Shown here piece after piece: positions 10,101-39,141 of a stretch of DNA of 39,934 nt (positions are counted from its first letter, which is position 1; each line of letters opens with the position of its first letter). The translations under genes and the position numbers were made by a program. The stretch covers positions 1 through 39,934 of IMG/VR virus record IMGVR_UViG_3300033388_003055. One strand, written 5' to 3'. This DNA is from a virus. The notes beneath the pieces are model-generated. The model was not told where the DNA came from and searched no databases. It saw only the letters and a list, made by a program, of their open reading frames with translations.

Positions 10101-10987
10101 TGGATAATGTCGGTAAGGAAACAACGATCAATGCTGTTATTGATAAATACAGGAAAATAGCAAAAAAGCCGACACCGGCCTTTCTTGAAATGATGGATAG
10201 GGTATTGGGTGATGAAGCCGCGCAGACTATCAAGGATCTAAAAGAGGGTGCAATTACTGAGAATGTCAAATTTCTTGCCTTTAATGAACTGGCCGATGTC
10301 CAGCCGATCTCTCTCTCAGAGGTTCCGGTTAATTATTTAAAGGCTAAAAATGGAAAAATATTGTATGCTTTAAAGACCTACCAGATCAAATTACTTGATG
10401 TTTTTAGAAATGAGTCATTTGCAAAAATGAATACGGATCCAGTTGAAGGTATTACTAATTTTCTTAGGCTTATTTTCGCTCTGGTTTCTGTTAATGCCTC
10501 AGCAGATATGATTAAAAACTTTGTTATGGGTAGACCATTCGATGTAAGCGATTTACTTGCAAACAACATTTTAAAGATTATGGGATTCAACAGGTACACA
10601 ATATACAGGGTTAAAGCTGATGGGCCGGCTCGCGTTTTAGCAGAACAAATCTTGCCACCTACACAAATCCTTGATAATATATACAAGGATAGCGAAACAG
10701 CTTTTAGAATTGGGTCTACCCTGACCTTTCAAGATGTACCAGAACTCTTACTGAAAGCGCGATCAGTCCAAAACATTCCTTTAGGCGGCAAACTATTCTA
10801 CTGGTGGGTCGGTCGAGGTCGCGAATTATCAGCAAAAGAGAGAGAAAGACTTGAGAATAAAGAAGCCGAAATACGATTCCTCAAATCTCTTACACCGGAT
10901 CGCAGAAAGAAATTTCTTAAAATAGAGAAAAAACAAGAACAACAACGAGTCTTGGACAAAGCATTGGGTAGACAAGGAGATGAATAA
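4139..10987 (+). CDS. Giant multidomain internal virion / ejection-type protein (gp16 position)
   Basis: At 2282 residues this gene takes about 17% of the window. Visible parts in order: an acidic N-terminus with a repeated SGVKFD/SGIKFDE motif (residues 5-51); two hydrophobic segments (about 234-270 and 354-378) that could insert in a membrane; long charged coiled-coil-like stretches (400-760); a SAP-like helix-loop-helix (about 784-815, SELEALSIVLGIPKAG); two small beta modules with VSVIDI and GDKVTHLA starts (about 970-1022 and 1351-1406); a proline/threonine-rich linker (about 1527-1567); and a helical C-terminal third with NPINALTQLGDLAFSVYKSG near 1910 and a hydrophobic run near 2107-2132. 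Position and length match the large ejection protein gp16 of T7 (1318 residues), but no transglycosylase motif was found. The domain layout resembles the large polyvalent proteins of phages. Function is inferred. Confidence 0.7.
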   Translation: MAINLSGVKFDDELEEEEKDPLVADLITDSVGDKPPAIDTSGIKFDEPEDKTFYLEDVDKTVSVPGSADIDQANELIQTQVYGDKKEEYVGSVKVSGWNLLKGVGRMIAELPQVAGVGIQESGELGELKAQRRIALLTDQLIRRREIETKMKENDPNLGFFKEFIEDYKLFKELNKLPRESFLTDIELKQQEAKVQIGGEFADVGREINRSNIEWVKNHGLTPDPGIINKVLFDVGGVGGSVLFSVGLSALMKNNFVTPIVFGAIQKAQIFQEAEGKGIGIERRKEISDRAGAMEALIEFIGLEIFFKYMRGAKTIQRTLVRTGSNGLQEVGQQGSEEFIRKTEGLSNDSWADMFLRIGYSGILGLVGGFPTSAIFTVMENKGVVGDLRRAGFNDVEIGTIVTAVGDSQKEPIKQEVKKMLEREAEKQATETQPEVKATVENLEKVTDDSEVPPEDLDPAGLPEIPIFENAKQAKEFGRSENPLTSKALALVQARLGNTIIQLRQENRVDEAKQLEKNELKFVTIALAEAEKQDLKRRIELDKQKQQGDLFDQEQKEEAEQEEQIAGILPGTPTERIAQVKDISKATGQSVKEVQEIIDDLSDSFITDVGDLSPDQKLVVDEISRIREISVEDILDPPEAAPVEIKVEDIEESQKREIAKQALSFLNSLEREGGQLVRDEEGKVINRTTGSVPDFVDEIGEDTMINVLNKFIDGDKLTDKQQETLDQTILAFAGIPLGELSQEESEEKGIPTFAEWSETPESTQVPAGSILTVQPDEITQEFLEGKTNSELEALSIVLGIPKAGTKKFKVDRILAVQRVKEQVDDLGIDGLQQLSGKELKSLLKSVNQKASGNKNTMAFDLFSWVEQIRRNGRIDLQRETYNTFLSKQGDASIRARLEIFLSDFANSDKIFQEERTKREKRRRLLDDTKEEEIAKVFKKELKTMGVKFVGEKGSITEGQPLTIIDIIPSREIHQGMRVSVIDITKDKPKVIRQGVVTSVLVVAGQNKIQVTDNNGKGIWHTAEMIARPTGDIPNMTIELTDPGIDIFVTISGKPTEKEIKQIVKVANDNKVGIDIMIVNSEDENIFEDNVPNTKGMNLDFRAIINDEFVDVSEAGGQSQEGGFESDKDPVKPDPLHIAQKLEPISLVRIQANSTAQTASGNFNKLEETAKDKEFDDLSKGDIKAGLSKDGELLISGELNYSKAEIFDGLVFGDKVKTVGINAKSGKGTSAHRKITWDDFVTYEGVVEFEGIDYMAFSYQTDNLKMNIMFKFTTAHGELFLVDEKTLSIGVYKAFFELSDGTTIDGRTDKEKADNPAKNQKKKKVVEENLVELEEVEERAPTGDEIPFIELKGKPKVGDKVTHLAKQGRIIAEVTKITAGGLTVDLKSDAGTFSFVNIGNLGEVPQGKDIDVEDIAITDESKVEKSVLAFKVLRIFGKNREVIKVMSTQQMQDTYGVGMGELFFADPEAILNVFKEDFPDAVAWEVSPELIKSQGEQDSADEILEKLSPSEEIEKNLEEIGIEANETGALPPITPPTQEAGGAETPPTPPPTTEAAGDQEGEPEPKPTIALDEFIRNRSKRPITAKVIDLGADLLEDLVRQSEDFLGVLSTRVGNISPDLKRRLRRFDFQLLAAIRTDTRGVVTYLKGINKIPKNDRSDLDLALKNGDIATIKRIDRENGLEEAHERVRETLKGLYARADAAGIEVRYLEGFWPRVIKNPKKLLEKLHGSRAWSQISAALQEKETELGRVLEDDEKAYLVNSLLRGFNVAQIRLSKPNALKERRIDVVTADLNVFYADSEAALISYITTVNEAIEANKFFGKGKLDKSEKLTPEERRELSDSEKARLKQKKIDLKFANIKDSIGVFVMEEVSKGNINAADEAELSKLLDARFIRGRISFFVGFLKDTSYITILGNPINALTQLGDLAFSVYKSGVWRTTKSFFNAATKQSAITKESIGIDRVAAEFTSGARRSEKAVRLAFKFSGLSFLDNVGKETTINAVIDKYRKIAKKPTPAFLEMMDRVLGDEAAQTIKDLKEGAITENVKFLAFNELADVQPISLSEVPVNYLKAKNGKILYALKTYQIKLLDVFRNESFAKMNTDPVEGITNFLRLIFALVSVNASADMIKNFVMGRPFDVSDLLANNILKIMGFNRYTIYRVKADGPARVLAEQILPPTQILDNIYKDSETAFRIGSTLTFQDVPELLLKARSVQNIPLGGKLFYWWVGRGRELSAKERERLENKEAEIRFLKSLTPDRRKKFLKIEKKQEQQRVLDKALGRQGDE

Positions 10988-13900
10988 TGACAGTTACTAA
11001 TACAGATAATAAAGATATTTATTCCGGAGACGGTGTAACAGTAATTTTTGCATACACCTTTAAAGTTTTAGAGGCCAGCGATATGGGTGTCACTGTCACA
11101 GATACTTTGGGTGTAAACCCAACATTAACACTTGTTTTAAATACTGATTTCACTATTGATAATATCGGGAATGATGCTGGTGGTGATGTAACATTACTTC
11201 TTACCGGACAGTTATCGACAGCACCAATCGCAACGGACACTATCACACTTCTACGAACAGTACCGATCACACAAAATCTTGATCTTGTTACTAATGATGA
11301 TTTCCCCTCACAATCACAGGAAGATGCTTTTGATAAGCTTACTTTTATTGCACAGCAATTAGATGAAGTTGATGAAAGACAGCTAACATTACCGCCAAGT
11401 GTGACCGGTGTTGATAATGAGTTGCCTTTTCCTATTGCTAATAAGGCGCTTTTGTGGAACGCCACCGCTGATGCCATAATTAATAGCACAGATGATTTTG
11501 ATGATATTGTTACAGATGCTGCTGCTTCTGCGGCCGCTGCTGCTGCTAGTGAAACTAATGCCGCGACTTCTGCAAGTTCAGCCGCTTCTTCTGCAAGCGC
11601 CGCTTCCACTTCCGCAAGTGCCGCCGCCGCTAGTGCGGCCGCCGCCGCCGCAAGTGCCGCAAGTGTTAATTTACCGCCTGTTGCTTTTCCGGCTAATGAA
11701 GGACAAATACTTGTTGCAAGAGCCGCCGCTTCACCTTTTGATTATGCTCTTGAAGCAAATCTTGTTGCAACGATTGATCAATTTACAATTATAAATCCTA
11801 CTGGTAATCTTGAAGTAGCACCTTTCATGCTGGATAATATTGTTTTAAATGCTATGCGCATTTCTTCAAACAATGCTCTTACTGTCCAAAATCTTTCTGA
11901 TGGTGTGGAAGATACATATACTGATGAAACTGGTATTAATGCTACTCCTACCGTTAATGAAACCTTTGAAGGTGGAAGTTATCGGACACAAGTTGGAACA
12001 TTGGCGGAAAATACAAAACTAATCTTAAATTGGGATGATGCTTTTACTGGATCAACAGAATTTGTTGATAGTAGTGGGAATAATCATGTAATTACACAAG
12101 CCGGTAGCGCGGCTATTTTCTCTACACAGTTTAAGTTTGGCGATGGATCATTGTGCCTTGATGGTACAAGCCAATATCTCACTATTCCTAATTCTGCTGA
12201 TTTTGATGTTATAGCATCTTTAGTAGATAGTTGGACAATAGATATGTGGGTTTATCATAATATCGAAGCTAATGCGCCGGAGCATTGGGTTTCTCATGGG
12301 ATTAACAATAATCTTTGGGATTTTCTTCGTAGAGGAACCAATGGCCGAGTAATGTTTTCTGGATCTGTTGCTTCTATAAATATGTTTGCTCCGAGTACAA
12401 ATCTTCGTGGCGATGAAGTGAAACCTAATGGTTGGCATCATGTAGCGGTTTCAAAAGTTAATGATGTTTGGGGAATATATTTAGATGGTGTTCAAACAGG
12501 ACATAGAATACAAACAGCCGTATTAGACACAACAAGCACTCTTTTTATTGGATCAAGTGTTACTGTTACTCAATTAACGAATGGATATATTGATGATCTT
12601 CGTATTTCCAAAGCAGATGAATTTGGAGTTGTACCGATTGCAGTACCGGAAGGATGGTGGCCGCTTAAAGATAATGCGGTTAGTACAACAGTTGAAGATT
12701 GGTCAGGAAATACTAATACCGGAACATGTAATGTTAATACAGATACAATTCATTCCGCAGGGAAAGTTAGAAATTCTTTTGATTTTAATTCAATAAATCG
12801 TGTTGTTATAAATACTATCGTTTCAACAATAGAAAACGATACTAGCGGAACAGTAACAGCTTGGATAAATCCTACTTCAATAGCCGCATCACAAAGAGTA
12901 TTCGCAATATCTAATAGCGGCGCAAACACAAGATTAGATATATTTGTTGCTCTATCAACCGGAGTAGTTACGGTAGAACTTGTTGAAGCCGGTCTTACAA
13001 GTTGGACAATAGATAGTACTGGTGTAATAGCGGTAGATGTTTGGACACATATAGCAGTTGTGCAAGATGGAACATCGCCGGTTATATATATCAATGGTGT
13101 TGCAGATACAAATATCAATAACTCAAATAACATTACGCATTGGCTTAATAATTTAATAATACTTAATTCCGGTAGAATTGGTAACAGGATTTACAATGGA
13201 ACAGGGGAGCAAGATAACTTTTCTGGAAGAATAGAAGATGTGCGATACTATCAAAATGTTGCATTATCAGTAACAGAAATTAACTCAATTCGTGATGCCG
13301 GTATTGCTGGTGTTTATGGTGTTGGTGGGCCGAACCTTACTGTACCGACAGTAGCGCATACTGATAATGTAAACACTCATTTGTTAATGCACTTTGATTC
13401 AGCAACACAAGGCGAGGATCTTATTGATAGTTCTACCGGTGGGGTAGGATCACCACATACTGTAACTTCCGTTGCCGGTGCTGGTGTTAGCGGAAAGTTT
13501 GGTAATGGAGTTTTAAGATTAAATGGATCTACTGATCGTATATTTGCGCCAGATAGTGTTGATTGGGATATTGCCGGATCAACGGCTGATAGTTGGACAA
13601 TCGGTTGTTGGATAAGAAATGCTGATGTAGGAAATCAAGGTCAATTTATTGGGCAACAAGTTGATGGCACAAACTTTTGGGCATTTACATTAAATACAAC
13701 TAATGATTTAACATTTAGAGTTTTAACTACCGGGGATGGCGCATATATCACTATGACCGCTGGTTCAATAACCGATAACGATTGGCATTATGTAACAATG
13801 ATTAAAGTTGCAAATGATTGGGGAACATATCTTGACGGAGTGCAAATCGCTTTTGACACAGAAGCAGTAATTACCTCTACCTATACGGCATCACTAGAGA

Positions 13901-15060
13901 TTGGCGGCGCAACATTTTCTTCTCAATGGTTTGATGGAGAAATGGATGATGTGCATATTTCGCATGATAATCTATTATTCTCCGGCGCTCCGGTTGTTGG
14001 ATTGACGGACACAATAACCGTACCGACAGCCGTAACAGCGAATGTTGCTGGAACAGTATTGCATTTATTATTAAACAGTAATGATGAAAGTCCATTTAAT
14101 AATAAAATAGTTTTCATTGCGACAACATTATATGATAATGCAAATCCAAAATTTGGCGCTGGAGCCGTTGATTTCAACGGAACAACAGGTCGCATAACAA
14201 GTCCAGATTCTACTAATTGGGATATTGTTGGAGATCCTAAAGAGGATTGGACTATTGATCTTTGGGTTAAACATACCGATCATGCTTTATCGGAAGCTTA
14301 TATAGCACAACGAGAAGATGGTAATAATCGTTGGGCTATTCTTCATACTAATGCAACAGGAATAGAGTTCTTTTCAAGAAATACAGCCGGCATTATCGCA
14401 AGTATCGCGGCCAATGGGGAAATAACTGATACTTTATATCATCATATTGCTTTAATAAAAGTAGGGAGTGAAAATTCGGCCGGTTCTGAATATGGATTAT
14501 ATTTAGATGGTATACAAGTGGGTTATGTTCAAAGCGCCTTATTTGATACATTTACTGCGCCTTTAGTTATTGGATATGATGGTTCAGCAAACTTCTTTGA
14601 CGGACAAATGGATGGTATAAGAATAGCACAAACTAATGTGATATTTGCTGGCGCTCCAAATGTAGGTCTAACTGACACTATTACTATTCCAACATCAGCG
14701 CCATCACCTATAGGATCATCAGCACCGGATTTACTCTTACAATCAACGGCGGCCGCAGTTGTTGGAGTAGCACCGGACACTATACAAGCTTATTTTGATC
14801 TTGAAGATATTGATCCGACTGTTTTATTAAATACTGATATTACTTTGGAAGTATCAAGGGATGGTGGAACAACATTCACAGTTGGAACACTTGCGCTTTC
14901 CGGACAACAAGCTACTGCTGGCCGTAGATTAATAAGTGCAGTAGTTGATGTTTCGTTACAGCCAAATCCAGGAGTTGATCTTGCAACAATTGTTTATAAA
15001 GTTGAAAGTGCTAATGAAATACAGTTTAGATTACATGCAAGCACAAGAATATGGGGGTAA
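10987..15060 (+). CDS. Tail fibre with T7-type N-terminus and four LamG-like domains
   Basis: Residues 1-150 match the T7 gp17 N-terminal attachment domain (VFAYTFKVLEASDMGV-like start, TDTITLLRTVPITQ, SQSQEDAFDKLTFIAQQLDE). An Ala/Ser-rich coiled-coil-like rod follows (about 175-225). Four consecutive concanavalin/LamG-like beta-sandwiches occupy about 341-545, 553-771, 795-1013 and 1021-1235; three contain a DSWTIDMWV-type strand or close variant and a WHHVAV/YLDGVQ pair, while the second is more diverged (WTHIAVVQDG, YINGV). The last 120 residues form another beta-rich tip. The protein should bind to the tail through its N-terminus and recognise surface glycans through the LamG domains. 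No catalytic motif was seen. The start ATG overlaps the previous TAA by one base. Confidence 0.88.
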   Translation: MTVTNTDNKDIYSGDGVTVIFAYTFKVLEASDMGVTVTDTLGVNPTLTLVLNTDFTIDNIGNDAGGDVTLLLTGQLSTAPIATDTITLLRTVPITQNLDLVTNDDFPSQSQEDAFDKLTFIAQQLDEVDERQLTLPPSVTGVDNELPFPIANKALLWNATADAIINSTDDFDDIVTDAAASAAAAAASETNAATSASSAASSASAASTSASAAAASAAAAAASAASVNLPPVAFPANEGQILVARAAASPFDYALEANLVATIDQFTIINPTGNLEVAPFMLDNIVLNAMRISSNNALTVQNLSDGVEDTYTDETGINATPTVNETFEGGSYRTQVGTLAENTKLILNWDDAFTGSTEFVDSSGNNHVITQAGSAAIFSTQFKFGDGSLCLDGTSQYLTIPNSADFDVIASLVDSWTIDMWVYHNIEANAPEHWVSHGINNNLWDFLRRGTNGRVMFSGSVASINMFAPSTNLRGDEVKPNGWHHVAVSKVNDVWGIYLDGVQTGHRIQTAVLDTTSTLFIGSSVTVTQLTNGYIDDLRISKADEFGVVPIAVPEGWWPLKDNAVSTTVEDWSGNTNTGTCNVNTDTIHSAGKVRNSFDFNSINRVVINTIVSTIENDTSGTVTAWINPTSIAASQRVFAISNSGANTRLDIFVALSTGVVTVELVEAGLTSWTIDSTGVIAVDVWTHIAVVQDGTSPVIYINGVADTNINNSNNITHWLNNLIILNSGRIGNRIYNGTGEQDNFSGRIEDVRYYQNVALSVTEINSIRDAGIAGVYGVGGPNLTVPTVAHTDNVNTHLLMHFDSATQGEDLIDSSTGGVGSPHTVTSVAGAGVSGKFGNGVLRLNGSTDRIFAPDSVDWDIAGSTADSWTIGCWIRNADVGNQGQFIGQQVDGTNFWAFTLNTTNDLTFRVLTTGDGAYITMTAGSITDNDWHYVTMIKVANDWGTYLDGVQIAFDTEAVITSTYTASLEIGGATFSSQWFDGEMDDVHISHDNLLFSGAPVVGLTDTITVPTAVTANVAGTVLHLLLNSNDESPFNNKIVFIATTLYDNANPKFGAGAVDFNGTTGRITSPDSTNWDIVGDPKEDWTIDLWVKHTDHALSEAYIAQREDGNNRWAILHTNATGIEFFSRNTAGIIASIAANGEITDTLYHHIALIKVGSENSAGSEYGLYLDGIQVGYVQSALFDTFTAPLVIGYDGSANFFDGQMDGIRIAQTNVIFAGAPNVGLTDTITIPTSAPSPIGSSAPDLLLQSTAAAVVGVAPDTIQAYFDLEDIDPTVLLNTDITLEVSRDGGTTFTVGTLALSGQQATAGRRLISAVVDVSLQPNPGVDLATIVYKVESANEIQFRLHASTRIWG

Positions 15061-17715: not shown

Positions 17716-17931
17716 ATGGCTGGAGATAAATCTAAACCAGATACGACAGGGAAAGCAGTCCGCGATATGAAAGGCTCAGAAGAAATTAAGCCGGAAGCGA
17801 CTGACCCAAAGGCTCAAAATCGAGTTCAGGTGCATCAAGGCAATATTCCTGTCCTCACGATCCAGTTTTTAAGTGAAATATCACAGAAGGTCGGACGGAT
17901 CGCCGATGCTTTAGAAAAAGCTAATGGCTGA
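17716..17931 (+). CDS. Small hydrophilic protein
   Basis: 71 residues. The first 40 are Lys/Asp/Glu-rich and probably disordered; the last 25 (LTIQFLSEISQKVGRIADAL) form an amphipathic helix. AAAGGACAGGAAT precedes the ATG, a strong ribosome-binding site. The end overlaps the next gene by 8 bases. Possibly a chaperone or a small structural connector; not recognised. Confidence 0.6.
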   Translation: MAGDKSKPDTTGKAVRDMKGSEEIKPEATDPKAQNRVQVHQGNIPVLTIQFLSEISQKVGRIADALEKANG

Positions 17932-25666: not shown

Positions 25667-25742
25667 TTTTGCCTTTCGATTTATTGGTGGCTCGGACGGA
25701 CGGAAATCTATCCGAATTAAGTACAAGGACACCACCGGATTT

Positions 25743-25967: not shown

Positions 25968-26120
25968 CAGTCCGTCCTTTCTTGAGTTCTGCCATTTACC
26001 ACATCTCCAACATTTAAATCCTTTAATATATTCACAATAACCCCAATCACCATTTTCGGGTAAATCATAGCCGTGTATCTTTTGATAACTATGCCCGAAT
26101 ATCCAACACATAAACCTCAT
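25743..26120 (-). CDS. Zinc-ribbon protein read through into an acidic domain
   Basis: 125 residues if read from 26120. The first 45 form a small zinc-binding unit (Cys5, His10, Cys29, Cys37-x-x-Cys40; KCWRCGKW). The frame then runs through the 11-mer GAAAGGACGGA as RKDG and continues into an acidic 74-residue part that has its own good start at 25967. This looks like two neighbouring genes joined because the intergenic ribosome-binding site is read in frame without a stop. Both the long product and the short one may be made. Confidence 0.55.
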   Translation of the reverse strand: MRFMCWIFGHSYQKIHGYDLPENGDWGYCEYIKGFKCWRCGKWQNSRKDGLMAIFEVKGEARVKFKYDIESKHEDDLVDKIGERLADDLGDLDFEIDDSCTEIEMSDCQYTDQDELADRERDSEK

Positions 26121-26347
26121 TCCAGTCCTTTCTTGAGTTCTGCTATGCGTTCAGTTAAAACTTTGTCCACTTCATCTTCGTGGTAGTATTCATCGCTAAA
26201 ATCTGATTCTTCAAAACCTAACTTCTCCAACTCCTGAATCCTTGCCGAGATAACATACTGCTCTATGGCTTTGGCTAGTTCTTTCACGCACCCATCATTG
26301 TAACAAGCATACTCATTGATTATCTTCTCCAACGCTTTAAGCTCCAT
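26117..26347 (-). CDS. Small early protein with KAIEQYVI-ARIQELEK and AELKKG motifs
   Basis: 76 residues, helical and acidic. The middle segment LAKAIEQYVISARIQELEK resembles parts of the proteins at 26593-26829 and 26860-27006, so these are probably paralogues. The C-terminal RIAELKKGLE is encoded by a DNA repeat that also forms the ribosome-binding site of the next gene. It overlaps the next gene by 4 bases. Confidence 0.65.
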   Translation of the reverse strand: MELKALEKIINEYACYNDGCVKELAKAIEQYVISARIQELEKLGFEESDFSDEYYHEDEVDKVLTERIAELKKGLE

Positions 26348-26606
26348 TGTCTAGTCCTTTCTTTAGTTCTGCTGCTGACCTGCAACTCATTTCATAATCA
26401 TCTATTTCTAGTTTTTGTCTTTTCTGTGGCTTTATATAATACTCTATCCATGCCCCACAACTATCACACGAATCGTAAAATCTATCCACTTCCCAAAACT
26501 CAAGACTAGATAGCATACATACACCATCTTTGCTTTGGAAAGAATCTACAACACTTCCACATTCAGGACAATTAACTTGGTGATTGATATAATCAAACAT
26601 TCCCAT
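26337..26606 (-). CDS. Small zinc-ribbon early protein
   Basis: 89 residues beginning MGMFDYINHQ. Cys13-x-x-Cys16 (CPECG) and Cys47-x-x-Cys50 (CDSCG) form a four-cysteine ribbon in the pattern of a common small phage family. The C-terminus SAAELKKGLDNGA is again encoded by the junction repeat. AAAGGAATAGACG precedes the ATG. Function unknown; protein-protein or nucleic-acid binding is likely for a ribbon of this kind. Confidence 0.65.
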   Translation of the reverse strand: MGMFDYINHQVNCPECGSVVDSFQSKDGVCMLSSLEFWEVDRFYDSCDSCGAWIEYYIKPQKRQKLEIDDYEMSCRSAAELKKGLDNGA

Positions 26607-26829
26607 CGTCTATTCCTTTCTTTAGTTCTGCTATGCGTTTTAATACAGGCAACCAAGGCACATCTTCCATAGCACCACTATCTAAAACTTTATTCAACTC
26701 CTCTATCCTTGCCTTGATAACATACTGATTAAATGCCTTGAGTAATGCCTTTTTAGCACTCAATAAACCAAATGAACCTATGAGTTTAAGTTCCATGTCT
26801 ATCTTTTCTTCAATGTTCAATTCTTCCAT
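26593..26829 (-). CDS. Small early protein with NQYVIKARIEEL and AELKKG motifs
   Basis: 78 residues, helical. KAFNQYVIKARIEELNK aligns with the segment in the gene at 26117-26347, and both end in RIAELKKG followed by Leu/Ile and acidic residues. AAGGAGATAATGGGAA lies before the ATG. It overlaps the next gene by 14 bases. Paralogue of the downstream gene by motif; function unknown. Confidence 0.65.
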   Translation of the reverse strand: MEELNIEEKIDMELKLIGSFGLLSAKKALLKAFNQYVIKARIEELNKVLDSGAMEDVPWLPVLKRIAELKKGIDDGNV

Positions 26830-26859
26830 TTCCCATTATCTCCTTTCTTTCTAAAACTA

Positions 26860-27006
26860 TCAGCATGAGCCATGTGTTTCTTTCTTGGGTTTCCTAATGT
26901 ATCTCTTTTTGATAAACTGCTCAATAGCTTTGGCTAATCTATCTCTTTCTGGTAGAGATAAGTCTGAAAAGTATATCAATTCCTTTATCCTTTCGATCTC
27001 TGTCAT
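26860..27006 (-). CDS. Small early protein, shorter paralogue
   Basis: 48 residues (MTEIERIKELIYFSDLSLPE start). The segment RLAKAIEQFIKKRYI matches the KAIEQYVI motif of the two downstream genes, but the protein stops soon after and lacks AELKKG. GAAAGGACGGACTG precedes the ATG. It overlaps the membrane protein gene at 26939-27112 by 68 bases in another frame. Confidence 0.55.
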   Translation of the reverse strand: MTEIERIKELIYFSDLSLPERDRLAKAIEQFIKKRYIRKPKKETHGSC

Positions 27007-27112
27007 CAGTCCGTCCTTTCATTTTGTAATACCATTTCCAGTAATATCCAGCGCCTATCCACGAAACGACACAGATCGCTATTCCTACCAAAGCTGAAAT
27101 TAAATAATCCAT
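26939..27112 (-). CDS. Small membrane protein overlapping the next gene
   Basis: 57 residues with an N-terminal transmembrane segment (LISALVGIAICVVSWIGAGY, about 4-23). Its frame continues through the next gene's ribosome-binding site (KMKGRTDD) and 68 bases into that gene. The ATG shares one base with the previous TAA. The basic tail after the membrane segment may not be conserved. Confidence 0.5.
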   Translation of the reverse strand: MDYLISALVGIAICVVSWIGAGYYWKWYYKMKGRTDDRDRKDKGIDILFRLISTRKR

Positions 27113-27192
27113 TATCGTTTCACCTCTTTTTCCTTTTTCTTTTTTGCTCGATAAATCTGTTTCCTGATCCGTTGATATTCTCTTTCCGTCAT
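27112..27192 (-). CDS. Very small basic peptide
   Basis: 26 residues (MTEREYQRIRKQIYRAKKKK then EKEVKR). It has GAAAGGACGGA four bases before the ATG and ends in TAATG with the next gene; the RGG-like AAAGAGGTGA near its end is that gene's ribosome-binding site. Short, but start and stop context favours real translation, at least as a leader peptide. Confidence 0.45.
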   Translation of the reverse strand: MTEREYQRIRKQIYRAKKKKEKEVKR

Positions 27193-27205
27193 TTTTTCCG
27201 TCCTT

Positions 27206-27373
27206 TCAATAATTGTCGATCTCTTTCTTAAATCTCTTTTTATCGAATTTTGCTAGTTTCTCATTTAGGAATTCTTTTATATCGGTGTAGTACAATGCTG
27301 AGATTATTGCGTGGCGAGTGTCGGTGTCTAATCTTTCCCACCAAGACCATACTCTTTGATTAAGTTTTTTCAT
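27206..27373 (-). CDS. Small hypothetical protein
   Basis: 55 residues from MKKLNQRVWSWWERLD. I chose the ATG at 27373 because GAAAGGACGGAA is directly upstream; the frame is also open from an ATG at 27403 that falls in the promoter. The sequence is Trp-rich at the N-terminus and basic at the C-terminus. It is the first gene after the extended -10 promoter at 27402-27410. Confidence 0.6.
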   Translation of the reverse strand: MKKLNQRVWSWWERLDTDTRHAIISALYYTDIKEFLNEKLAKFDKKRFKKEIDNY

Positions 27374-27401
27374 TTCCGTCCTTTCGAGATAGGGGAATGT
27401 C

Positions 27402-27418
27402 ATTATAACACCCCCCCC
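27402..27418 (-). promoter_or_regulatory. Extended -10 promoter with an adjacent G8 tract
   Basis: On the minus strand the sequence TGTTATAAT (27402-27410) is a perfect extended -10 element (TG-n-TATAAT). It is preceded directly by eight G in a row (27411-27418). No clear -35 is seen. It would start transcription just before the gene at 27206-27373. The homopolymer sits where a -10/-35 spacer would be. Confidence 0.5.
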
Positions 27419-27429
27419 ATCTGAATTGG

Positions 27430-27924
27430 TTATTTTTTAACTAACAACAATTTGGGTTTTTCATTCACAATAGTTTCAACTTCTTTCCTATCATCTGAGA
27501 GCCAAAGTCTTTTTAACTTATTATCCCTTTGGTCTTTGATCGCTTGAATATCCAAGTTCCGAGCCATTTTCAAATAGAAAAAGCGACCGGCTGGGGTATT
27601 TTTATCGACCTCTTGCATACTGCTATGTTTCGCCCAAGTTTTAGTAAAACCAGAAGTCGTACCATTGTAGTTATTGATAAACCCTAGCTGAGTCCTTTTC
27701 TTTTCGAGCATAGCGATCTGCTCTCTTAATTGTTTAACTTGTTTCTCAATACAAGCTATTCCAAATTTCTTTTCAGCTTGTACGAGTATTTCGCCTTCGG
27801 TGAATTGCATTTCTTGTTGCGTGGTTTGAATTACCTCGTTGAATTGGTTTTCCATCAGCTTGGCAAGTTCGCGCTTTTCAATAGTTCCTATTTTACTAAC
27901 TGGTAACTTTGGTATGCTCGGCAT
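27430..27924 (-). CDS. Coiled-coil early protein
   Basis: 164 residues. A central coiled coil (about 50-90; EKQVKQLREQIAMLEKKRTQ) is followed by a segment with KNTPAGRFFYLKMARNLD, then a basic C-terminus. GAAAGGACGGAAAAAA precedes the ATG. It overlaps the 3' end of the small Cys protein upstream by 29 bases. Not recognised; a DNA-binding or host-interaction role is possible. Confidence 0.65.
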   Translation of the reverse strand: MPSIPKLPVSKIGTIEKRELAKLMENQFNEVIQTTQQEMQFTEGEILVQAEKKFGIACIEKQVKQLREQIAMLEKKRTQLGFINNYNGTTSGFTKTWAKHSSMQEVDKNTPAGRFFYLKMARNLDIQAIKDQRDNKLKRLWLSDDRKEVETIVNEKPKLLLVKK

Positions 27925-28063
27925 TTTTTTCCGTCCTTTCTTTTAGATCGTCCATTTTCGCGGCTATTTCCATAATAGGACAACTAGCGCAACCACCATA
28001 TCGGGTTACTGCGCCATTATCACAATTTGCGATTACTTTATTACATACTATACAGAGTAACAT
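27896..28063 (-). CDS. Small cysteine-rich zinc-binding protein
   Basis: 55 residues. Cys4-x-x-Cys7 (LCIVCNK), Cys14 and Cys25-x-x-Cys28 (CASC) make a zinc site. The frame runs through the next gene's ribosome-binding site as KERTEKN and stops 29 bases inside that gene. GAAAGGACGGAAA precedes the ATG. No family recognised. Confidence 0.6.
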   Translation of the reverse strand: MLLCIVCNKVIANCDNGAVTRYGGCASCPIMEIAAKMDDLKERTEKNAEHTKVTS

Positions 28064-28083
28064 TTTTCCGTCCTTTCGTAATT

Positions 28084-28143
28084 GGGGTATGCCTATCAGT
28101 TTATCCCCCTCATTTTCCCCTTATGGAAAGATAGACATACCCC
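28084..28143. repeat. Long inverted repeat between early genes
   Basis: GGGGTATGCCTATC (28084-28097) and GATAGACATACCCC (28130-28143) are complementary at 13 of 14 positions with a 32-base loop rich in pyrimidines on the plus strand. It fills the only sizeable gap inside this part of the operon and is followed, in the leftward direction, by a ribosome-binding site within 20 bases. There is no T-run, so it is more like an operator, processing site or attenuator than a simple terminator. Confidence 0.6.
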
Positions 28144-28157
28144 AGATTTAATTTACC

Positions 28158-28355
28158 TTAAAAGTGCATTGTACGAATTCCCCCCTTTCTTTCGTTTGCT
28201 CGGTTTAACTTCTTTTCAAATTTCTGCATCACATTTCTCAAAGCGATCAATTTCAAACCATTCCCATTGATACTATGAAACGAAATGGCCTTGTAAAGTT
28301 CCTCTTGAACGACATTAAATTCAAATTTATTTAGATTGAATTTTATACCTCGCAT
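28158..28355 (-). CDS. Small basic protein
   Basis: 65 residues, basic, helical (MRGIKFNLNKFEFNVVQEEL start). It overlaps the end of the 220-residue gene by 13 bases and is followed by the inverted repeat at 28084-28143. Not recognised. Confidence 0.6.
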   Translation of the reverse strand: MRGIKFNLNKFEFNVVQEELYKAISFHSINGNGLKLIALRNVMQKFEKKLNRANERKGGIRTMHF

Positions 28356-29005
28356 TTATCGACCTCTAGCGCTGAAAAGAATTCAAATTTCTCGCTTGTT
28401 GAATAAAGCTGATAATCGTTTTTCCAGTCACCACTGGAATACATTTTGAGATAAGTCCACGATCTAAAATTCTCAGCCAAGTGAATGGCGCAGTTCGACC
28501 ACTTCGGCTGATTTCTGTTGTTGCTATGTCGTCCGGAAATTGTACCGAATTGCTGAAAATTATTAGGATATATATTTATCTCAATAGTTTCCAAATTCGG
28601 CAAAGTGTGAAAATAACAGATTTTTGCGTGGTCGCTTGTGCAAGTTCTTAATTCTATCTTGATGGGATAGATCGGGGTTATGTCGGCTCTTGTGCTATCG
28701 GGTTCGGCATAAGGTCGAAACGAAACGCAACCATCTCGCCAAAAATACATTGGCGCTGGTGTTAGTTTCTCGATAATTTCCATCAGTTGCCAGTTATCAA
28801 TCCCTTTATCGTCATAACTTCGAAAGCTATCGCCAAAGCTAATGGACGCAGTAGAATTCCAAAGTTTACGAATATAAACACTTCTCGGCTTGATCTCTGT
28901 GGCTTGGCTAATGTGTTCTTTGATGGTCGCTTGTTTCTTGGCGCTTTCAATTCTTGCTTTTGCGTCAGTTTTAATTTTCTCTATTTCTTCGGTTAAATCT
29001 ACCAT
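28343..29005 (-). CDS. Hypothetical early protein
   Basis: 220 residues from MVDLTEEIEKIKTDAKARIE. I chose the ATG at 29005 because GAAAGGACGGA lies five bases upstream; an in-frame ATG at 29071 has no such site. A coiled-coil N-terminus (about 1-35) is followed by a mixed beta-rich domain (WRDGCVSFRPYAEPDS, then LETIEINIYPNN). I do not recognise it. Confidence 0.6.
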   Translation of the reverse strand: MVDLTEEIEKIKTDAKARIESAKKQATIKEHISQATEIKPRSVYIRKLWNSTASISFGDSFRSYDDKGIDNWQLMEIIEKLTPAPMYFWRDGCVSFRPYAEPDSTRADITPIYPIKIELRTCTSDHAKICYFHTLPNLETIEINIYPNNFQQFGTISGRHSNNRNQPKWSNCAIHLAENFRSWTYLKMYSSGDWKNDYQLYSTSEKFEFFSALEVDKCEV

Positions 29006-29074
29006 TTTTTTCCGTCCTTTCGTGTGGGGGGAAATCGACCGAATGACAAAGCCGACTTCCCCTTTTGGCATAAA

Positions 29075-29386
29075 TTATCCCTCGTTATATACTGCTAAAA
29101 CTACCTTTGTGATTTGCTCTCTTGACTCTGTTGTTAAACATCTTACGGAGTCATACCATTTTCTATCCTTCGCCTGTTCCTGTGGCATTGAAACAAAAAG
29201 TCCGTCCTTACCTTCCAAGACTTTTATTCCCTTAATTAAAAGTGCGTCATTAACAATAATATCAGCAAATGCTTTAAGAGGTCGATCACTCTCAAAGCGA
29301 TACATTCGCTGAACCTGAATTTCAAGATTACTCTCGACTTCCTCTTTTGGTGTTTCTGTATCTGGGGTTTGTGCTTTCGTTGTCAT
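29075..29386 (-). CDS. spoVG: SpoVG-family nucleic-acid-binding regulator
   Basis: 103 residues; the ATG at 29386 has GAAAGGACGGAAAC upstream. After a disordered Thr/Glu-rich N-terminus, the SpoVG fold is clear: PLKAFADIIVNDALLIKGIK (36-55), VLEGKDGLFVSMP (56-68), and TTESREQITKVVL (85-97). SpoVG proteins bind DNA and RNA and tune gene expression in bacteria; phage copies are found near early recombination genes. Here it lies near the promoter of the leftward operon, so it may regulate phage or host transcripts. The 88 bases upstream contain a small hairpin (29416-29435). Confidence 0.8.
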   Translation of the reverse strand: MTTKAQTPDTETPKEEVESNLEIQVQRMYRFESDRPLKAFADIIVNDALLIKGIKVLEGKDGLFVSMPQEQAKDRKWYDSVRCLTTESREQITKVVLAVYNEG

Positions 29387-29474
29387 TTTTGTTTCCGTCC
29401 TTTCGTTGCGAGGGTGTGTCGGTTTCGCCTGACACAATTACACCAAAGCGCCATATATTTGGAGACCTCTGTTT

Positions 29475-29810
29475 TCATTGGGTTTGTAATTCTCTTTTTT
29501 TGCAGTTCTCTTGTTTGAAGGTTCTCAAGGTGATATTGTTTTCGTTACAATAGCGCCAAAGTGGTTCATAACTTCCGTTGTCGTTTCTCTCGCCCACGAT
29601 ATAACCTTTTTTAATGAGGGTTTGATTTGCTATGTCGATATAATGTTCCCCATAACCATATTGAAAATTCAAGATGATCTCTTTCTCGTTGCGCTTTCCA
29701 TAGTTCAAGTGAATAGTGGCGCTGAAATAACTATTCCCATTCACTCGGTCAAACCATTCTCGACTGCGTATGTCTATCGTTTCGAGTTTGTATTTAGTAA
29801 GTGTTACCAT
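29475..29810 (-). CDS. Conserved-looking hypothetical early protein
   Basis: 111 residues. The blocks SREWFDRVNGNSYFSATIHL, YGYGEHYI and LWRYCNENNI, with a Lys-Arg-rich end, look like an uncharacterised family seen in environmental phage early regions (from recall, not tested). It is a compact alpha/beta domain without catalytic cluster. GAAAGGACGGAATTCTA precedes the ATG. Confidence 0.6.
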   Translation of the reverse strand: MVTLTKYKLETIDIRSREWFDRVNGNSYFSATIHLNYGKRNEKEIILNFQYGYGEHYIDIANQTLIKKGYIVGERNDNGSYEPLWRYCNENNITLRTFKQENCKKRELQTQ

Positions 29811-29826
29811 TAGAATTCCGTCCTTT

Positions 29827-29964
29827 CTATTGGTGAGCCATTGGAGTAAACTTTCCCCAGTATTTATTTATGCGATTGATTAACTTGAGTTTGCTCTTTG
29901 AGTGGAACACGATCTTCCCCCAGTGGTATGCGTACCATCTTTTCTTTTTCTTAATTACGAACAT
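29827..29964 (-). CDS. Small basic protein, first gene of leftward operon
   Basis: 45 residues, very basic and aromatic (MFVIKKKKRWYAYHWGKIVF start). GAAAGGACGGA lies seven bases before the ATG, and the leftward promoter at 30005-30032 is about 40 bases upstream, so this is likely the first early protein made. Small basic first-early proteins often act on host targets or nucleic acids; not recognised. Confidence 0.6.
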   Translation of the reverse strand: MFVIKKKKRWYAYHWGKIVFHSKSKLKLINRINKYWGKFTPMAHQ

Positions 29965-30004
29965 TGGCTTTTCCGTCCTTTCGTAGTGGGTTAGAATTAC
30001 CTTC

Positions 30005-30032
30005 ATTATAATACTATGATTATAAGAGTCAA
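30005..30032 (-). promoter_or_regulatory. Leftward sigma70-type early promoter
   Basis: On the minus strand TTGACT (30027-30032) is followed after 16 bases by a perfect TATAAT (30005-30010). Transcription would begin near 29998, about 35 bases before the first early gene. This is the best promoter-like sequence in the window and suggests that host RNA polymerase reads the early genes. Confidence 0.75.
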
Positions 30033-39086: not shown

Positions 39087-39094
39087 AGAGAACT

Positions 39095-39127
39095 TTGGGG
39101 GGAGAGGTTAAACTTTCCCCCCAATTT
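39095..39127 (+). terminator. Rho-independent terminator-like hairpin after head genes
   Basis: TTGGGGGGA (39095-39103) and TCCCCCCAA (39116-39124) form a perfect 9-base-pair stem with a 12-base loop, followed by TTT. The short T-run suggests partial termination, which would lower tail-gene transcription relative to capsid. Confidence 0.65.
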
Positions 39128-39141
39128 AAAAGGAGTATTTT

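Follow-up and report, generated by a model that had tools for sequence, protein, structure and literature searches.

Why should the same 11 nucleotides stand, without a single difference, just ahead of one start codon after another along a single phage operon, and what, if anything, reads them? The window (the whole stretch of viral DNA analysed, 39,934 nt) offers ten such leaders. Their copy number, conservation, pairing with the ribosome, distribution and surroundings are considered here in turn.

The genome and the operon that carries the leaders

The record is a nearly complete phage genome, circular or circularly permuted. A contig from a different metagenome (L009) is 100% identical to it over 13,230 nt. 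It is the only other copy found, and it bridges window ends 1 and 39934 via 195 nt absent from the window. The phage is short-tailed: its terminase, portal, capsid and tail tube are encoded in the right half of the genome, the portal and capsid being closest to those of the HTVC010P-group Pelagibacter phages (~40% and 47-55% identity). A tail protein of 1357 aa, encoded at 10987-15060 (+), contains four laminin-G-like lectin stretches.

The leaders belong to a leftward operon encoding small proteins, a weakly SSB-like protein, a SpoVG-family protein and, further down, exonuclease-like and RusA-like proteins. Gene content and orientation suggest that this operon is early. Its putative sigma-70-like promoter (TTGACT-16-TATAAT, 30005..30032, minus strand) was assigned by match to the consensus only.

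Ten exact copies ahead of gene starts

The 11-mer GAAAGGACGGA is the commonest in the 40-kb window. All ten exact copies are minus-strand sequences within 25971-29982 (Table 1), and the structural half of the genome has none, leaders being confined to non-structural genes. Simple arithmetic predicts ~0.02 copies for the whole window. With ≤1 mismatch allowed, 100 dinucleotide shuffles gave a mean of 0.67 matches and never as many as 11. The first-pass annotation had described ten exact 11-mers on one strand, 1-7 nt ahead of an ATG, as beyond chance, and these counts bear it out.

Table 1. Leaders, stem-loops and the SpoVG-family gene in the leftward operon
Feature	Coordinates	Strand	Distance to ATG (nt)	Gene start or context
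Leader 1	29972..29982	-	7	45-aa ORF 29964-29827, first gene of the operon
Leader 2	29817..29827	-	6	ORF 29810-29475 (111 aa; phrog_6246, weak SSB-like match)
Leader 3	29394..29404	-	7	spoVG-like ORF 29386-29075 (103 aa)
Leader 4	29011..29021	-	5	ORF 29005-28343 (220 aa; no family match)
Leader 5	28067..28077	-	3	ORF 28063-27896 (55 aa)
Leader 6	27930..27940	-	5	ORF 27924-27430 (164 aa); leader within upstream ORF
Leader 7	27375..27385	-	1	ORF 27373-27206 (55 aa)
Leader 8	27197..27207	-	4	26-aa ORF 27192-27112; leader overlaps upstream TGA stop codon
Leader 9	27010..27020	-	3	ORF 27006-26860 (48 aa); leader within overlapping ORF 27112-26939
Leader 10	25971..25981	-	3	In-frame ATG (25967) within ORF 26120-25743
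SpoVG-family protein	29075..29386	-		PF04026, E 7e-19; itself behind leader 3
Stem-loop	29415..29436	-		Gap ahead of leader 3
Stem-loop, 13 bp	29028..29062	-		Gap ahead of leader 4
Stem-loop, 15-nt arms, 93% complementary	28083..28144	-		Gap ahead of leader 5
Stem-loop with TGTTATAAT inside	27387..27422	-		Gap ahead of leader 7

Clear gene starts, each opening a separate ORF, follow nine of the ten copies. The start behind leader 10 is uncertain because its ATG sits in frame inside a longer ORF; it may reflect internal initiation, a gene fusion or a relic. That ORF consists of a small N-terminal part containing Cys and a part of 74 aa, the latter with a leader and in-frame ATG of its own. Leader 2 overlaps the preceding TAG stop codon by one base, its first G. 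A one-mismatch copy, GTAAGGACGGA, lies within the spoVG gene (29201-29211) with no gene start behind it. Two variants with a one-base insertion, GAAAGGACAGGA at 17716 (+) and GAAAGGACTGGA at 26120 (-), are found ahead of two other starts.

Conservation is limited to the 11-mer

When aligned, the ten copies are identical at 110/110 motif positions. Information in their flanks is at background on both sides, except for A-richness 3' of the motif. Three leaders lie inside upstream ORFs and are read there in three different frames (27940, GAA AGG ACG GA; 27020, ..G AAA GGA CGG A; 25981,.GA AAG GAC GGA), so that conservation acts on the nucleotides and not on a peptide.

These observations bear on the earlier suggestion of a recombination boundary, in which small genes would have spread as copied cassettes with the leader as the seam of homology. 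The leaders do fall exactly at the borders of small, often unrelated ORFs. However, homology stops at 11 nt on both sides, the spacers vary from 1 to 7 nt and the three leaders within upstream ORFs are not at seams. Only the 11-mer has been kept while the flanks diverged; without selection, leaders simply carried along on cassettes would be expected to have decayed too. As the flanks show no likeness beyond the 11-mer, this origin is not favoured and appears quite improbable.

A Shine-Dalgarno core with a CGGA extension

The GAAAGGA part of the leader is a perfect 7-nt complement to the canonical 16S tail. The CGGA that follows ranks 76th by duplex energy among the 256 possible four-base extensions, assuming this canonical tail, which may not be that of the host. 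With the same tail, the core plus CGGA reaches -11.8 kcal/mol (bulged C), against -18.9 for the best extension and -8.7 for the core alone. The claim that CGGA is not explained by normal 16S pairing is thus upheld for a canonical tail: it is not what optimal pairing would select. Nevertheless, CGG can pair with the 16S tail if a bulge is allowed, which adds about 3 kcal/mol, and some of the extension may thus be ordinary Shine-Dalgarno (SD) sequence. Most late genes of the phage have AAAGGAG-type sites instead. The ribosome therefore appears canonical and the extension a property of the leader operon, which argues against the extended, host-specific ribosome-binding site (RBS) considered previously.

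A simpler explanation is that the leaders are plain strong RBSs, each a good SD for the host and all kept uniform for high and equal expression, with no dedicated reader of CGGA. The perfect 7-nt core and the extra pairing of GG across the C bulge are in its favor, as are the near variants GAAAGGACTGGA and GAAAGGACAGGA in the present genome and the single GAAAGGACGGA-ATG sites that serve as ordinary RBSs in unrelated phages. It does not readily account for an identity of 10/10 when 75 other extensions pair as well or better, nor for the late genes of the phage, which lack the leader. We consider it possible but rather unlikely.

Comparison with Start-Associated Sequences

The closest described elements are the Start-Associated Sequences (SAS), first reported in 2011 in Cluster K mycobacteriophages (PMC3203893), whose role is still not established in the literature, including papers of 2024 and 2025. 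The Cluster K SAS, GGGATAGGAGCCC, is a 13-nt asymmetric repeat with 11-19 copies per phage (Pope et al. 2011, PMC3203893). It stands 3-7 nt ahead of mostly ATG starts, in one orientation and at non-structural genes, and joins an SD core to conserved flanking bases unable to pair with 16S (PMC3203893). About half of the Cluster K SAS have an upstream inverted repeat, called ESAS (PMC3203893), and in Adephagia the ESAS hold putative promoters besides the conserved inverted repeat (PMC11373665). Cluster EF Microbacterium phages, represented by AnnaSerena, carry the SAS GGGAAAGGACCCC (PMC7302621). Both were found again with the method used here: 10 sites at ≤2 mismatches in 24.8 kb of TM4, and ten copies of GGGAAAGGACCCC before starts in AnnaSerena.

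As in TM4, about ten near-identical short asymmetric copies share one orientation and lie a few nucleotides ahead of an ATG. As in Cluster K generally, an SD core is joined to conserved bases beyond 16S pairing (the canonical tail being assumed here) and only non-structural genes are concerned. However, the leader does not match GGGATAGGAGCCC within 2 mismatches. Cluster K phages are temperate siphoviruses of actinobacteria whereas the present phage is short-tailed. SAS prefer upstream gaps >50 bp whereas just 4/10 leaders lie in gaps >50 nt. The ESAS is a conserved 17-bp inverted repeat with a putative promoter, upstream of a subset of SAS, unlike the stem-loops found here, which have no common sequence. 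With AnnaSerena the resemblance extends to sequence, the 8-mer GAAAGGAC being common to both elements, and strong hairpins directly precede at least two AnnaSerena SAS sites just as stem-loops precede four of the leaders. The extension differs (CGGA here, CCCC there), and the 5' GG of the AnnaSerena element is absent. Moreover, AnnaSerena is a phage of an actinobacterial host with an unrelated genome, and its SAS sites are spread over a longer part of that genome. Since the leader has the main architecture but lacks the known SAS sequence, the bias towards large gaps and the ESAS, we regard GAAAGGACGGA as SAS-like, a variant carried by a short-tailed phage unrelated to the SAS phages, and not as SAS proper; its mechanism is inferred.

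The stoperators of Cluster A mycobacteriophages such as L5 (PMC3203893, PMC4351075) are also short, repeated, asymmetric and oriented with transcription. By analogy, the leaders could be DNA operators, bound by a repressor and overlapping RBSs by chance, and their asymmetry, single orientation and short gaps would fit (PMC3203893, PMC4351075). But stoperators act on transcription and are not tied to an SD position, while every leader contains a perfect SD at the spacing from ATG expected for one, something a transcription roadblock would not need. In addition, neither an integrase nor an HTH_3-family repressor was found in the phage, and no copies occur elsewhere in the genome. A DNA operator is therefore improbable.

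Repeated start leaders in other phages and genomes

The number of genes sharing a start-proximal 9-mer was counted with one procedure at 149 loci, a non-random set mostly assembled for other purposes, many of the loci being included for holding one motif copy. TM4 scored 11, AnnaSerena 9, the present phage 7, L045 6, L091 5 and T7 4; at the remaining loci, the present phage's own aside, no more than three genes share such a 9-mer. The score of 7 for the present phage, against 10 by eye, arises because the caller assigns each ORF a single start and ignores ORFs <40 aa. By this count the phage falls with the published SAS phages TM4 and AnnaSerena and apart from nearly all other contigs, where no more than 3-4 genes have such a 9-mer in common, the exceptions being L045 and L091. 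An 11-mer common to ≥3 starts occurs in 3/59 contigs with ≥3 AAGGA-SD genes, namely the present window, AnnaSerena and L091, a rarity that is a further argument against plain RBSs. Ordinary phage contigs tested reach at most 3 starts by the 11-mer count.

In L091 (IMGVR 3300028914_000647), GGAAACGGA is found at or just ahead of five starts (8064, 8519, 9616, 10129 and 10342, minus strand, reverse-complement coordinates), at three of them as GAAAGGAAACGGA, and it also ends in CGGA. This is apparently a second, undescribed SAS-like repeat. The six gene starts of L045 have in common an ordinary-looking CAGAAAGGA, perhaps merely a uniform SD.

Searches of viral contigs with the portal, SpoVG, exonuclease and 220-aa proteins yielded no relative carrying the operon. 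Apart from the identical L009, they matched just four short contigs, with a portal at 72%, none of which extends to the operon. Among phage records, matches were limited to structural genes (HTVC010P group), SpoVG or the SSB-like protein. An Rfam search matched nothing.

A host-wide use of the leader as SD was also considered. A search of 84,980 species genomes for two exact GAAAGGACGGA copies 144-174 nt apart returned 24 matches. No leader clusters before genes were seen among the inspected loci (the actinobacterial matches and L135, L148, L151 and L157), which proved to be tandem repeats or low-complexity arrays with only isolated chance ATGs, and the host-wide SD was rejected as an explanation of these matches. 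Whole-genome GAAAGGACGGA counts are near the reversed control in most matched genomes, the two largest outliers being repeat arrays. Seven Actinomycetota MAGs (L134, L138, L139, L141, L145, L155 and L156) carry tandem arrays with a unit of ~159-169 nt that includes GAAAGGACGGACTGAGC-like sequence, away from gene starts.

Stem-loops in the longer gaps

Each of the four operon gaps >50 nt contains a leader and folds upstream of it, the stem-loop ending 1 to ~10 nt before the leader. Their z values are -1.4, -4.0, -4.3 and -2.8 (mean -3.1). They have no common sequence and TATAAT is present in just one. Neither leader 1 nor the leaders inside ORFs have a stem-loop of note. Stem-loops also tend to precede SAS sites in TM4 (mean z -2.7) and AnnaSerena (mean z -1.3).

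A hairpin and leader forming a single module would fit these four gaps. This was rejected, as an equally strong G-run/C-run stem-loop (39095-39124, plus strand, z -4.1) occupies the late gap 39087-39129, ahead of a tail tubular gene with an ordinary SD and no leader. Stem-loops therefore mark gaps in general and not leaders.

The same gap bears on RNA processing. T4 RegB cuts GGAG in early SDs, and the leaders might similarly be cleavage sites on early mRNA for a phage or host RNase. An identical sequence at the SDs of co-transcribed genes, with stem-loops nearby in the longer gaps, would be expected of such sites, but a stem-loop is present also in the late gap that lacks a leader. Processing is, in our view, highly improbable.

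Candidate readers of the extension

The shared translational operator proposed by the first-pass annotation combined two ideas that fared differently. A start-associated element common to the operon is the best reading, while SpoVG as its ligand is not supported. The SpoVG family (PF04026) binds RNA or DNA, and a member is encoded in the operon behind a leader. Listeria SpoVG bound several RNAs, its DNA binding being non-specific (PMC4959528). However, neither TM4 nor AnnaSerena, which carry published SAS, has SpoVG, and four phage contigs that do encode it show no repeated leader at their gene starts.

The leader contains two ANGGA words, which invites comparison with CsrA/Rsm-type recognition; CsrA is not encoded by the phage. 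An RNA reader was also considered. TTTCCGTCC, at 25706 (25687-25708, minus strand) on the same operon transcript, has a 9-nt complement to GGACGGAAA of the leaders. Such an anti-leader RNA could act on them, but the match is within chance for the sequence searched and the candidate was dropped.

Proposed function and significance

We favor the view that GAAAGGACGGA is an SAS-type start-associated element of translation initiation and a group signal for the operon, and on balance consider this probable. The GAAAGGA core would recruit the ribosome on the polycistronic mRNA, and the invariant CGGA would be read by one common partner, be it a protein or RNA of the phage or its host, or a specific ribosomal contact. 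The small genes of the operon might in this way be translated, or switched, as a set. The stem-loops of the long gaps would probably serve to insulate or stabilise the start regions that follow them.

More speculatively, such leaders could be a widespread device, evolved convergently in phages, that places the translation of gene groups under the control of a common reader of the extension. The present phage and L091 would then be new cases outside clusters K and EF, with CGGA as a recurring recognition word. This broader proposal is tentative, and we hold it doubtful at present. The comparison nevertheless suggests that shared start signals may be more widespread than so far reported.

The present phage has the GAAAGGAC core of the Microbacterium phage SAS with another extension, and so separates what is constant (the SD core and its position) from what is variable (the extension). 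This separation allows a direct test for a phage or host factor reading the extension. The leader itself would be a compact tool for putting several genes under one translational signal.
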